A DNA stretch of 64,000 bases from Thermococcus piezophilus (GTDB taxonomy: Archaea; Methanobacteriota_B; Thermococci; Thermococcales; Thermococcaceae). Shown here piece by piece: positions 36,579 to 63,179 of this stretch. The stretch is from positions 558,001-622,000 of the forward strand of contig NZ_CP015520.1 of NCBI RefSeq assembly GCF_001647085.1, in the 5' to 3' direction. The notes under the pieces are model-generated. The model did not search any database, was not told the DNA's origin, and saw only the letters and a program-made list of their open reading frames with translations. The stretch's first letter is position 1; every line of letters begins with the position of its first letter. Position numbers and translations under genes: made by a program.

Positions 36579-39041
36579 TCACTTCTTCTTGGTGAAGTAC
36601 CAGGCCGCGCCGGCGATGATGATTATCACAAGGCCGATGACGACGTAGGTGGTGGTGCTGGTTCCGCTCGGAGTAGTTGTGGTGGTCTCGGCTGGAGTTG
36701 TTGTGGTCTCGCTTGGAGTGGTCGTCGTTGGCTGGGTGGTCGTGGTCTTGGTGAGGTCCTTAAGGCTTATACCGGACATCTTCTGGATGACGATGGCGAG
36801 GTCATCGACGTGGTCCTTGGTGAGGAGGTCGAGCCAGAGGACTCCCTCTGCACCGCTGCTGAAGGAGTAAGTCTTGTCGATGCCATACTTCTTGCTATTA
36901 GCGACGAGCTCACCCATGGCCCAGTACATCTCCCATGGCATCTGCGGGTAGAAGATGTAGAATTCTGCAGTCATGTCGTCGGCGAGCGGGTGCTCGTAAG
37001 TACCGTAGACGACGTAACCATCATCAGTCCACTGCCAGCCGAGGATGTTGCTGAGAGCACTGGCAGTTCCACCAAGACTCTCGTCGTAGTATGGGTCGTC
37101 AGCACCATCCTTGTAAGCCCAAGTGTAGAGGAAGGCCACATAGTACTTAATGTCGTCAACACTGCCCTTCACGCCATTATGCCAGGTGCCAATGTCACAC
37201 TTGACGGTAGCCTTAACGGAGGCGTCCTCGCCGGCGTGAGCGGCAATCCATCCCTGGGTTTGGTTGTAGATAACCGCATCATCTGGAACCTTGAAGTCTC
37301 CCCTCTCAATGGTCCAAGTACACCTGTACGGAGTGAAGATACCGTCGAAGTTGTTGGTTCCACCGTAGTCCCTTATGAGATTCCAGACCCTGGTGGAGTA
37401 AACGTCACTGAGACCTCCAACCGGGTTAAAGGCGCTCATGAACATGGCACCGGTTGAAGCGAGCTGGGCAATCTTGAGGTGCTTGTCTGGGGTCTCGGCA
37501 CTCATGACGCTCCAGCGGCTGCTTATACCAGTGCTGGCCTCGGCGTTGATCTTGGTGACCCTCTGCTTGTTGGCCGGGTAGAAATTCCAAGTCTCAATGA
37601 GGAAGACCCTCTCGCTCTCCATGATACCTATGAGCATGCTTATCTTCTGGAGGTCCCAGTACTGGCCAGCAGTGGTTATCTTAATCGGCTCCTTGGGGAT
37701 GAGGTCAGCGTTGATGTGCGGAGTGCCCTCAGCACCTGCAGTGGTGAAGTATGTCAGCAGGTAAGTGAGCTCCTCCTCAGTCCAGTTGAGGATCGGACCG
37801 AGGCTGTCAGTGGTCTTGTAGTACTCGGTACCAAGCTTCTGGAGGCCAGCGTTGGCGTCACCGTTGCCGATGTACTTGAGGGCCTCTTCAACAGTCACAG
37901 TGTTCTGGTGCTTCGGCTCAACTGCACCTGGGACGTATCCATACCAGGCAGAATAGAACCAGGCAGTGTAGTCATCAATCCAGACGCTCGGAAGTCCACT
38001 GGCACCCCAACCGCCGGTATAGATGTTCCACTCGTAGTTGCTCGGCGGCTTGGCGAAGACGACCTGACCGGCCTTCTGCCTGTCCCAGAGGAGCCTGTCA
38101 ACGGTAAATCCGACCTTCTTCTCGAGGAGGTCGGCAACGTAGAGACCAATCTCCTTCCTATTGTCCTCGATGCGGATGATGAACTTGATGGTAACCGGCT
38201 GACCGTCGAAGTACCACTTACCGTCGCCACCCTTCTCAAGAGTGTGATTGTACTGGGCAACCTGCTGGGCGGCCTCGTTCAGAGCGTCGTTTATTATCTT
38301 GAGGGCGAAGTCCTCGTTGCCGCTAGTGCTCATTCCAAGGGCCTCGTAAACGGGCACGAAGTACTTGTTGGCCGGGTGGCTCGGCCTGATACAGCCGAAC
38401 ATCGGAGCACCGCTTCCTTGGTAGATGTTCTGGACGATGTAGTCCCTGTTGATGAGCCAGTTCATGGCAAACCTGACTTCCCTGATGGCGAACGGGTTGA
38501 AGTAAACCTGGTCACCAACGGTGACAATCGGAGCATCCTTGTCCGGGTCATGATAAGTGTTGAAGGTCAACTCGTTGTAGGAACTGGCACTCTTGTAGAG
38601 ATTGAGGTTAGACAGAACGTCAGCACCAAGACCCTGGTACTTACCAGCCGGGAAGGCGAACAGACCGAGGTCGTACTCGCCCTTGGCGATCTGGAGGATG
38701 ACGTTCTCAGGGTTCTGGACACCCTGGTACTCAATAACATCAGCGTAACCGTCCTTCAGGAGGTTCGGGTCGTTGGTGAATATATTCCTGTCCCCAGTGT
38801 ACTTCTCCAGCTTGAGGTAGAGGTTCTCCGGAGAGTACATGGCGAGAATGTACGGACCGTTGCTGATAACGAAGTGGCCGTGCTGGAGGTACCACTGGAG
38901 GTCAGCAGTGAACCTAGCCTTGGCCTCGTCGCTGTTAAGCGGTATGTCCTTGGGGGTGTAATCTACTGCACCCACTGGGTTCACAAAAAACAAACTAAAC
39001 AGCATCAAACCCATAACAAACAATCCCAAAGCTTTTTTCAT
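36579..39041 (-). CDS. Oligopeptide-binding protein (SBP family 5), apparently circularly permuted
   Basis: This 820-residue surface receptor feeds OppBCDF. A signal peptide (ALGLFVMGLMLFSLFFVNPVGA) is followed directly by HFVISNGPYILAMYSPENLYLKL and AIREVRFAMNWLINRDYIVQNIYQGSGAP, which in DppA/OppA-type proteins lie in the middle and second half. The family's usual N-terminal half comes afterwards: FMSAFNPVGGLSDVYSTRVWNLI, KCDIGTWHNGVKGSVDDIKYY, DDGYVVYGTYEHPLADD and MPWEMYWAMGELV. The end is a Thr-rich stalk (TTTTTPSGTSTTT), one membrane helix and KKK, so it is C-terminally anchored. The fragment at 1-678 shows the ordinary order. The frame is intact, with GGAGG before the ATG. The permutation is my inference from motif order. 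Confidence 0.88.
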   Translation of the reverse strand: MKKALGLFVMGLMLFSLFFVNPVGAVDYTPKDIPLNSDEAKARFTADLQWYLQHGHFVISNGPYILAMYSPENLYLKLEKYTGDRNIFTNDPNLLKDGYADVIEYQGVQNPENVILQIAKGEYDLGLFAFPAGKYQGLGADVLSNLNLYKSASSYNELTFNTYHDPDKDAPIVTVGDQVYFNPFAIREVRFAMNWLINRDYIVQNIYQGSGAPMFGCIRPSHPANKYFVPVYEALGMSTSGNEDFALKIINDALNEAAQQVAQYNHTLEKGGDGKWYFDGQPVTIKFIIRIEDNRKEIGLYVADLLEKKVGFTVDRLLWDRQKAGQVVFAKPPSNYEWNIYTGGWGASGLPSVWIDDYTAWFYSAWYGYVPGAVEPKHQNTVTVEEALKYIGNGDANAGLQKLGTEYYKTTDSLGPILNWTEEELTYLLTYFTTAGAEGTPHINADLIPKEPIKITTAGQYWDLQKISMLIGIMESERVFLIETWNFYPANKQRVTKINAEASTGISSRWSVMSAETPDKHLKIAQLASTGAMFMSAFNPVGGLSDVYSTRVWNLIRDYGGTNNFDGIFTPYRCTWTIERGDFKVPDDAVIYNQTQGWIAAHAGEDASVKATVKCDIGTWHNGVKGSVDDIKYYVAFLYTWAYKDGADDPYYDESLGGTASALSNILGWQWTDDGYVVYGTYEHPLADDMTAEFYIFYPQMPWEMYWAMGELVANSKKYGIDKTYSFSSGAEGVLWLDLLTKDHVDDLAIVIQKMSGISLKDLTKTTTTQPTTTTPSETTTTPAETTTTTPSGTSTTTYVVIGLVIIIIAGAAWYFTKKK

Positions 39042-60720: not shown

Positions 60721-61230
60721 TCAGCGCCTCCTCCTGATGAACTCCCCTATGTCAGTCACATTTAGAATGAACTTGTTTCTGCTTTTGGGATTTATACGTC
60801 CTATACCGAGTATGATGCCATTTTCGTCATATACCACAAGCTTCTTCGTTCCTTGCCAGTCGTACTTCCTGACGCCGCTCCTGGGGACATCTTTTCCCGT
60901 AGTGAAGAGGAAGCCCGCCCTGGGGCTTAGGATTGCGTAGTTTTTCTTAACATCCACAAAGTAGAAGAACTCGACATTTGGATAGAACTTCTCGACAAGG
61001 TTTTTGTCCACCTTAATCGTGCCAACGAAGGTTCCGTAGGCATAGGGCTTAACTTTCAGGTTTTCAAGTTCTTTCCAAACGCGCTCGTTCACAGCATAGA
61101 CGTCTCTAAACCTGCCCTCAACGACCGCAAAGGTATGGTGACTAAGCTCACCGTACTTCTCTGCCTCGCGAAGGATGAGGTCGTACTCCCACGCAGAGGC
61201 CCGTCTATAGCGGAGTTCATTCATCGACAT
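60721..61230 (-). CDS. PUA-domain protein, Nip7-like
   Basis: This 169-residue soluble protein has an N-terminal alpha/beta pre-PUA region (residues 1-90: [20 protein letters not shown] and [15 protein letters not shown]) and a C-terminal PUA domain ([37 protein letters not shown]). This matches archaeal Nip7-like proteins that bind pre-rRNA during large-subunit assembly; an RNA-binding role is likely, the target not proven. The start could be 61230 or the second Met at 61224. About 150 bp separate it from the KaiC-like gene on its left, with nothing notable between. Confidence 0.6.
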
Positions 61231-61271: not shown

Positions 61272-61993
61272 TCAGTCGAGTTCCTCAAGTAGTTTGAGGA
61301 AACCGTCCATATCCGTCTTCTCTAATTCCCGCTCAAACTCAAGGCCAAGCTCAGCTATCTCCTCTGGGGTTATGACCGCCTCAGGCTCCTCCGGGTTTAT
61401 TCCCGGGCAGGACTCGTCGTAGTAGAGCCACAGGTTCTCCCCTTTATACTCGAAGGGCTCCTCCCCCTCAACTCCCAGGGGCTTTCTGGAGACCATGAAT
61501 GGGTAGATGCGGCATATTATCGGGTTTTGGTCATGAATCCTGCACTTGCCTGTTTCCGGGTCGTGGAAGACGCAACCGAGATCCCACTCACGGTAGGCCA
61601 TGACAAAGCGAACCTTCCCGCCGTCAAGGGTCAGCATTACGGAGTCCTGTGGATCGTGGCCGGCCTTTACTATTTCTCTAATATCATTTAAAGTTAAATA
61701 TATCATTTAAAGTTAAATATATCATTTAAAGTTAAATATATCATTTAAAGTTAAATATATCATTTAAAGTTAAATATATCATTTAAAGTTAAATATATCA
61801 TTTAAAGTTAAATATATCATTTAAAGTTAAATATATCATTTAAAGTTAAATATATCATTTAAAGTTAAATATATCATTTAAAGTTAAATATATCATTTAA
61901 AGTTAAATAGATGAACCTCCCCCTACAGCAGTCAAGGCAGAACTTGCACTTGAAGTGGACGTCTTCTCGAAAAGATTTCGGCTTGAACCTCAT
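61272..61993 (-). pseudogene. YkgJ-family Cys-cluster protein split by a 19-bp tandem repeat
   Basis: The gene encodes a YkgJ/UPF0153-type zinc or iron Cys-cluster protein: N-terminal MRFKPKSFREDVHFKCKFCLDCCRGRFIYL, then LTLNDIREIVKAGHD, GCVFHDPETGKCRIHDQNPIICRIYPFM and DESCPGINPE. The codons for YLTLNDI are expanded to twelve perfect 19-bp copies (61681-61908), putting stops in all continuations and the two halves out of frame. With a single copy the frame would be restored exactly. The last copy contains an ATG that could start a 144-residue product lacking the first Cys cluster. I infer a recent expansion that inactivates or switches the gene. Confidence 0.8.
61681..61908. repeat. Minisatellite, 12 perfect copies of a 19-bp unit
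   Basis: The plus-strand unit ATATCATTTAAAGTTAAAT is repeated twelve times without a single mismatch (228 bp). It lies inside the YkgJ-family gene; read on the minus strand one unit encodes most of YLTLNDI. The unit is very AT-rich and contains TTTAAA- and ATATTTAA-like sequences that resemble archaeal TATA boxes on either strand. Units are contiguous, without spacers, so this is not a CRISPR array. Perfect identity indicates a recent origin, probably by replication slippage. Confidence 0.97.
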
Positions 61994-62028: not shown

Positions 62029-62559
62029 TTAGCTTTCCTTAGGGTAGGCTACTTTGAACGCTCCCCAGTCAGTTTCTTCTCCGTAGGTTACCGTGAAGTT
62101 GACCAGCTCATAATTCTCCGGGGCCGAATCCCTTTTGTATGCAATCAGATGGTAGCCGCTCTCCACGTACCAGTAGAAGGCACTGCTTATCATGAACAGA
62201 TATTTTGGTATGACCAGCTTCCTAACACACTCCTTGCTCCTCACGTATTTCTGTCCATCCCAGAAGAGGACGTCGAGGCACCAGTCAGGATTCTGGATAT
62301 TCAGCACCACGGAGTTTCCATAATCCTCGCTTCCCTTCAGAATGAGGTGCTTCTGAAGGTCAACTGCGTTGCTCCAAGTGTAATTTCCGAGGGTTATGTT
62401 CTCCAGCAGAATTATCCGGCCCTTGGGAGACGCAACACCGTAGGGAACGAGCTTGTGAGTGATTATCGGCACGAGGAGGTAGTAGAGAACTACTATCGCA
62501 ATGATTGCGACGACAACAAGAATCTTAAGGACTGACTCAGTCTCATAAGAGATTCTCAT
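62029..62559 (-). CDS. Membrane-anchored exported protein, paralogue of the next gene
   Basis: This 176-residue protein has a short cytoplasmic start (MRISYETESVLK), one membrane helix (ILVVVAIIAIVVLYYLLVPII) and an extracytoplasmic beta domain with NPDWCLDVLFWDGQ, KECVRK, FYWYVESGYHLIAYKRD and NYELVNFTVTYGEET. Two Cys may form a disulfide. The gene upstream encodes a related protein (PGWCLDLWVWGG, LYWYLEPGYALVLHK, NYELVNLTVTYGG), so this is a tandem duplication. No known family is recognised. GGTGATT precedes the ATG. Intact. Confidence 0.7.
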   Translation of the reverse strand: MRISYETESVLKILVVVAIIAIVVLYYLLVPIITHKLVPYGVASPKGRIILLENITLGNYTWSNAVDLQKHLILKGSEDYGNSVVLNIQNPDWCLDVLFWDGQKYVRSKECVRKLVIPKYLFMISSAFYWYVESGYHLIAYKRDSAPENYELVNFTVTYGEETDWGAFKVAYPKES

Positions 62560-62603: not shown

Positions 62604-63179
62604 TTATGACTTCTTTATCGCCACTTTCAGGGAGCCTTCTCCTGTAATTCCTCCGTAGGTAACGGTCAGGTTCACGAGTTCGTAGTTCTGAACGGGTTCA
62701 GTTTTGTGGAGAACCAGCGCGTAGCCAGGCTCGAGGTACCAGTAAAGTATCTCCTTGGCATCATGGGTGGGCACTCTCCTGAAGGCGTACTGACTCATTT
62801 GGATTTCATTGGAGCAGTTGTACTTCAACTGCCAGCCGTTGTTCGAACCGCCCCAGACCCAGAGATCGAGGCACCACCCCGGGCTTGTTACGCTTATTGT
62901 CAAGCTATCACCCATGTTGTCATTGCCCTTCAGGACGAGAAGGTTGTTCTGAGAAGTTATAGGCACGGCGTTGGTGTAGTTGATGGAACCCATAGTGAAG
63001 TTCTGAGCGAGGACTATCTAGCCCTTAGGAGCCGCAACATCGAAGGGATTTGGGTTATGGGAGAGGATAGGATAAATAACCGCGAAAAGGACGACCACAC
63101 CTACTACGAAGACAATTAAGAGAACCTTGATTATGAATGAAGTCTCGTAGGAGAGACCCTTCTTGGATTCCTCTTTCAC
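62604..63179 (-). pseudogene. Membrane-anchored exported protein, paralogue, interrupted by TAG
   Basis: Starting at a GTG (63179) with GGTGATT upstream, the frame reads KKGLSYETSFIIKVLLIVFV, a membrane helix, then SHNPNPFDVAAPKG, a TAG at 63020-63018, and continues in frame as IVLAQNFTMGSINYTNAV to KVAIKKS. The intact paralogue has PKGRIILLENITLGN here, so the stop replaces one residue. It might be a single nonsense mutation or a read error. A shorter start at the later ATG (62993) would lack the membrane anchor and be of doubtful use. Confidence 0.7.

Follow-up and report, generated by a model that had tools for sequence, protein, structure and literature searches.

The stretch of Thermococcus piezophilus DNA analysed here, 64,000 nucleotides in length and referred to as the window, contains a minus-strand gene of the CxxCxxCC or YkgJ-like family (PF03692) that is interrupted by a tandem array. 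The gene occupies positions 61272–61993, its ATG beginning at 61993 and its original stop codon ending at 61272. The initial annotation had placed the array inside a YkgJ-like gene, an assignment borne out by the PF03692 match and by the intact gene in relatives. PF03692 matches both the part of the gene downstream of the array and the intact protein of the nearest relative, a sibling species (G028). The sibling protein scores 47.3 bits against a curated cut-off of 23, and the interrupted ORF of the window, which is without the N-terminal cysteine cluster, scores 30.7 bits. C16, C19, C22, C23, C71, C81, C91 and C126 are invariant among the 28 sequences aligned; the domain score above the curated cut-off and the conserved cysteines together place the protein in the family. 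A sequence search for a relative in the PDB found none. Just one further family member was found in the genome, a paralog of 35% identity at 1,187,037, and thus no second intact copy of the gene turned up there.

The next gene downstream (60721–61230, minus strand) encodes a NIP7/UPF0113 PUA-domain protein (Pfam PF03657 and PF17833) and starts 41 bp past the original stop codon of the CxxCxxCC gene. It is a possible target of polarity from the array; a TATA-like CTTATAAAC precedes it, which suggests that it may have its own promoter. The gene on the upstream side (62029–62559, minus strand) has no Pfam match, and 35 bp separate its stop from the start codon of the CxxCxxCC gene. This ORF and the one at 62604–62993 are similar (for example, NYELVNFTVTYGEET and NYELVNLTVTYGGIT), an apparent tandem gene duplication that is present in the sibling species too.

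Read on the coding strand, the array is composed of twelve tandem 19-bp units, ATATTTAACTTTAAATGAT, at 61683–61910 (minus strand), and the codons for YLTLNDI fall inside the repeated unit. The array had been described as twelve perfect copies. Its presence was confirmed and eleven of the units are identical, but the first unit (CTATTTAACTTTAAATGAT, 61892–61910) opens with C instead of A, its sole difference from ATATTTAACTTTAAATGAT. TRF reported one array at this site, 61681–61909, with a period of 19, 12.1 copies, 100% matches and a score of 458, which was the highest in a TRF run over the entire closed genome (1.93 Mb; 1,928,800 bp). With these values the array qualifies as a minisatellite, in the sense of head-to-tail units of 10–100 bp present in several copies of high identity. 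The genome-wide runners-up were CRISPR-like arrays or a 21-bp repeat with 4.9 perfect copies, which scored 204 and was the best non-CRISPR array after the one described here.

The maximum TRF score was 52–57 in three first-order Markov genomes of equal size, and no further copy of the ATATTTAACTTTAAATGAT unit was found in the rest of the genome at up to two mismatches. Given the Markov-genome maxima and the uniqueness of the unit, the array is beyond chance. Sampling 400 kb of the sibling genome gave a best score of 70; in the same length of sequence from another relative (G014), each of the eight top arrays listed was CRISPR-like. The possibility that the unit is a mobile or shared element was rejected, with no further copies found in the genome, the family or viral contigs.

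Effect of unit number on the coding output

Translation was computed for each copy number n from 1 to 16. When the array is collapsed to one unit, the 170-codon frame is recovered exactly, in agreement with the initial annotation, and a 170-aa protein is encoded. All copy numbers from n = 2 to n = 16 yield an identical 39-aa peptide, because no frame across the repeat stays open for more than three units. In the assembled sequence, the truncated upstream ORF (MRFKPKSFREDVHFKCKFCLDCCRGRFIYLTLNDIFNFK, 61874–61993, minus strand) ends at a stop codon in unit 2. Stops had been predicted between the N-terminal cysteine cluster and the remainder of the protein, and they do lie just beyond the cluster. 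The downstream ORF of 144 aa (61272–61706, minus strand) begins with an ATG in unit 11 and is without the N-terminal CxxCxxCC cluster. The 39-aa peptide keeps C16, C19, C22 and C23 and the 144-aa ORF keeps C71, C81, C91 and C126; judged from this partition of the cysteines, neither the peptide nor the fragment is likely to work alone.

Two further points on the array had to be corrected. A useful start codon had been assigned to the last unit, but the ATG of the 144-aa ORF (61706) belongs to the last-but-one unit, and the ATG of the last unit leads to MILEK followed by a stop. Repeated TATA-like sequences had also been noted in the array. They occur once per unit per strand, 24 matches in total, and composition-matched shuffled units reach 24 matches in 11% of trials; the matches are therefore not evidence for a promoter, and the array was rejected as one.

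The locus in relatives and the origin of the array

Of 94 Thermococcales genomes subjected to a protein search, 91 contain the gene, among them all 74 of good quality (good completeness and low contamination); both counts include the genome of the window, in which the copy is broken. No internal stop was found in the gene in the other Thermococcales genomes searched; where the ortholog match is short, as in a few fragmented assemblies, it may have run into the end of a contig. Two adjacent units, with up to three mismatches allowed, were found in none of the 93 other Thermococcales genomes. The sibling species, 96.5% identical to the window genome over the compared DNA, carries the unit precisely once (CTATTTAACTTTAAAGGATATTAG, with AAAGGAT); its gene is collinear in all other respects and encodes an intact 170-aa protein. 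A single in-frame copy of the segment is present in all 26 further readable orthologs aligned. Because the sibling has one copy and no other genome carries the tandem unit, the array is a derived and recent expansion, and the recency claimed for it from the outset is upheld by its absence from the sibling and from every other relative.

Comparison of the one-copy form of the window gene with that of the sibling gave a dN of 0.015 and a dS of 0.091 (dN/dS about 0.16), indicating purifying selection on the gene until recently. Apart from the array, the alignment with the sibling (∼9 kb) contains just four indels, each of a single base and each intergenic, which speaks against both general decay and a poor local assembly.

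The age of the expansion relative to other changes can be read at codon 33, which is a lysine codon (AAG) in the sibling and in the outgroups G026 and G014, and AAT in the window in all twelve units. N33 is derived, since both outgroups have K33, and the K33N change preceded the expansion, since AAT stands in every unit; the same AAG to AAT change created an ATGA in each of them. An array dating back to the split from the sibling would be expected to contain about 4 substitutions, and 0 separate the eleven units (P about 0.02 when homogenisation is ignored), an age estimate that is weakened by the ability of repeat homogenisation to erase substitutions.

The duplicated segment is TATTTAACTTTAAATGATA. 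Its breakpoints share only 1 nt of perfect homology, and the first duplication was thus no textbook direct-repeat slip. An origin by slippage at flanking TATT repeats was rejected, the TATT copies being 17 bp apart and not 19. Hairpin-driven slippage was rejected as well: K33N gives a weak 5-bp stem (−1.3 kcal/mol at 37 C, z −0.6) that is not convincing as a driver of slippage in a hyperthermophile, and the three-unit fold beats shuffles (z −2.6), yet weakly.

Interpretation of the expansion

The array is probably (at roughly 70%) a recent loss-of-function mutation that arose through tandem expansion, and not an evolved on/off switch. K33N would have arisen after the lineage split from the sibling, and a single duplication of the 19-bp TATTTAACTTTAAATGATA would then already have broken the frame. 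Growth to twelve units may have followed via slippage or unequal recombination between the identical units. This growth from 2 to 12 units looks neutral because two copies already stop translation at 39 aa, and the copy number would continue to drift neutrally, the encoded product being unchanged by gains and losses. The loss should be reversible in principle, as the gene would be restored exactly by a collapse that leaves one unit. Speaking against an accidental loss, it is somewhat surprising to find a knockout of a gene that every good-quality relative keeps, since a gene so retained is expected to matter. The locus suggests that such a gene can nevertheless be lost in an isolate.

Two known classes of sequence change resemble the expansion in part. 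With minisatellites or VNTRs the array shares perfect head-to-tail units of more than 10 bp and an expected instability of length; unlike them, it sits in, and breaks, a conserved coding sequence. Mutant spectra of Sulfolobus acidocaldarius contain intragenic tandem duplication that likewise shifts the frame and inactivates the gene, but the available text of that report lists tandem duplications, not arrays (PMC7785828), whereas the Thermococcus array has twelve units. With a one-copy sibling and a perfect twelve-unit derived state, the locus offers a clean natural case of minisatellite birth in a hyperthermophilic archaeon, in which the order of events is partly resolved. The growth, stability and reversion of the array are directly measurable in Thermococcus by PCR, and if a reversion rate can be measured, the gene would be a simple natural slippage reporter for these organisms.

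This account presupposes that the array is real and not an artefact, which is highly probable. On the alternative reading, the chromosome truly has one or a few copies and the array was introduced by assembly or sequencing. In this respect it is suspicious that the broken gene is one that all good-quality relatives retain. In addition, 228-bp arrays are hard for short reads, and assembly errors are known to arise at tandem repeats; yet the errors described, in the available text of that source, are mostly collapses to fewer copies (PMC6868369), whereas the array is long, perfect and contained in a single closed contig. No other coding indel separates the flanking 9 kb from the sibling, and the lineage-specific substitution is carried by every copy of the unit. 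An artefact is therefore considered rather unlikely.

A contingency locus toggles as its repeat grows or shrinks by one unit or a few. The initial annotation had seen in the array a possible on/off switch, by which cells would toggle the CxxCxxCC protein through changes in unit number. Such a reading is invited by an intragenic, perfectly repeated array whose unit of 19 bp is not a multiple of 3 and of which one copy is exactly in frame, and by a reading frame that is undamaged apart from the array. Bacterial SSR contingency loci, such as those of Neisseria, Haemophilus and Campylobacter, are also intragenic, with perfect copies, units that are not multiples of 3 and stops in the shifted frames. 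They toggle, however, in steps of one short unit or a few, and act for the most part on surface structures or restriction systems (PMC11868660). Here only n = 1 is on; single-unit steps between n = 2 and n = 16 leave the coding output at 39 aa, against 170 aa at n = 1, and the gene would be re-enabled only if the eleven extra units were lost together, so that the proposed switch fails on this point. The locus is also not maintained across relatives: an array at this site was found in none of the 93 other Thermococcales genomes searched, where orthologs are without internal stops. TRF found no second frame-breaking array of many perfect units in the genome, and the gene is conserved order-wide, unlike the surface and restriction proteins that are usually switched. 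Taken with these observations, toggling by unit number is improbable. No intragenic minisatellite switch described in Thermococcales was found in the literature searched, and a 2025 review leaves the archaeal distribution of contingency loci to future work (PMC11868660).

A more elaborate form of switching is conceivable from the way in which the stops and starts overlap. The truncated ORF terminates at a TGA that shares bases with an ATG (ATGA), and each later stop reached from such an ATG overlaps a start codon in the same way. Ribosomes might thus terminate and reinitiate two units per step, and the array would act as a parity switch, odd n giving the C-terminal fragment, even n none, and a rare full collapse the whole protein. 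When the chain was computed for n = 1–15, the 144-aa ORF was reached only at odd n of at least 3, and even n led to MILEK and a stop; n = 12 corresponds to six links. In Haloferax volcanii, overlapping stop and start codons have been shown to support reinitiation, which mutation of the SD motif abolished in no case tested (PMC6728339). The chained short frames resemble archaeal ATGA termination-reinitiation in that each TGA ending them overlaps an ATG, but the archaeal cases couple two adjacent genes (PMC6728339), whereas the predicted chain consists of identical mini-ORFs. Both the stepwise reinitiation and the parity switch built on it are very unlikely, since the six-link chain would run through an AT-rich unit without any Shine-Dalgarno-like sequence, with efficiency expected to drop at each of five or six links; moreover, the 144-aa fragment is without the invariant C16, C19, C22 and C23, and the assembled copy number of 12 is even, that is, off.

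Other tandem repeats in the genome

A second perfect minisatellite (21 bp × 4.9) lies outside the window at G000:C1:1239646-1239747, in frame within a minus-strand ORF in which KHKRFND is repeated. Its 21-bp unit is absent from G028, G026 and G014, and the ORF matches no Pfam family above that family's own cut-off. A perfect 19-bp repeat of 2.1 copies is located at the end of a small ORF (G000:C1:1723231-1723270, outside the window). The CRISPR-like repeat GTTTCAATTCTCCTAGAGTCTTATTGCAAC occurs at G000:C1:1383732-1384427, and a CRISPR-like repeat of the GTTTCA type, different from GTTTCAATTCTCCTAGAGTCTTATTGCAAC, at G000:C1:1927325-1927485, both likewise outside the window. Within the window, positions 36655–36748 hold two overlapping imperfect tandem repeats with units of 24 and 21 bp, which are multiples of 3 and possibly coding.
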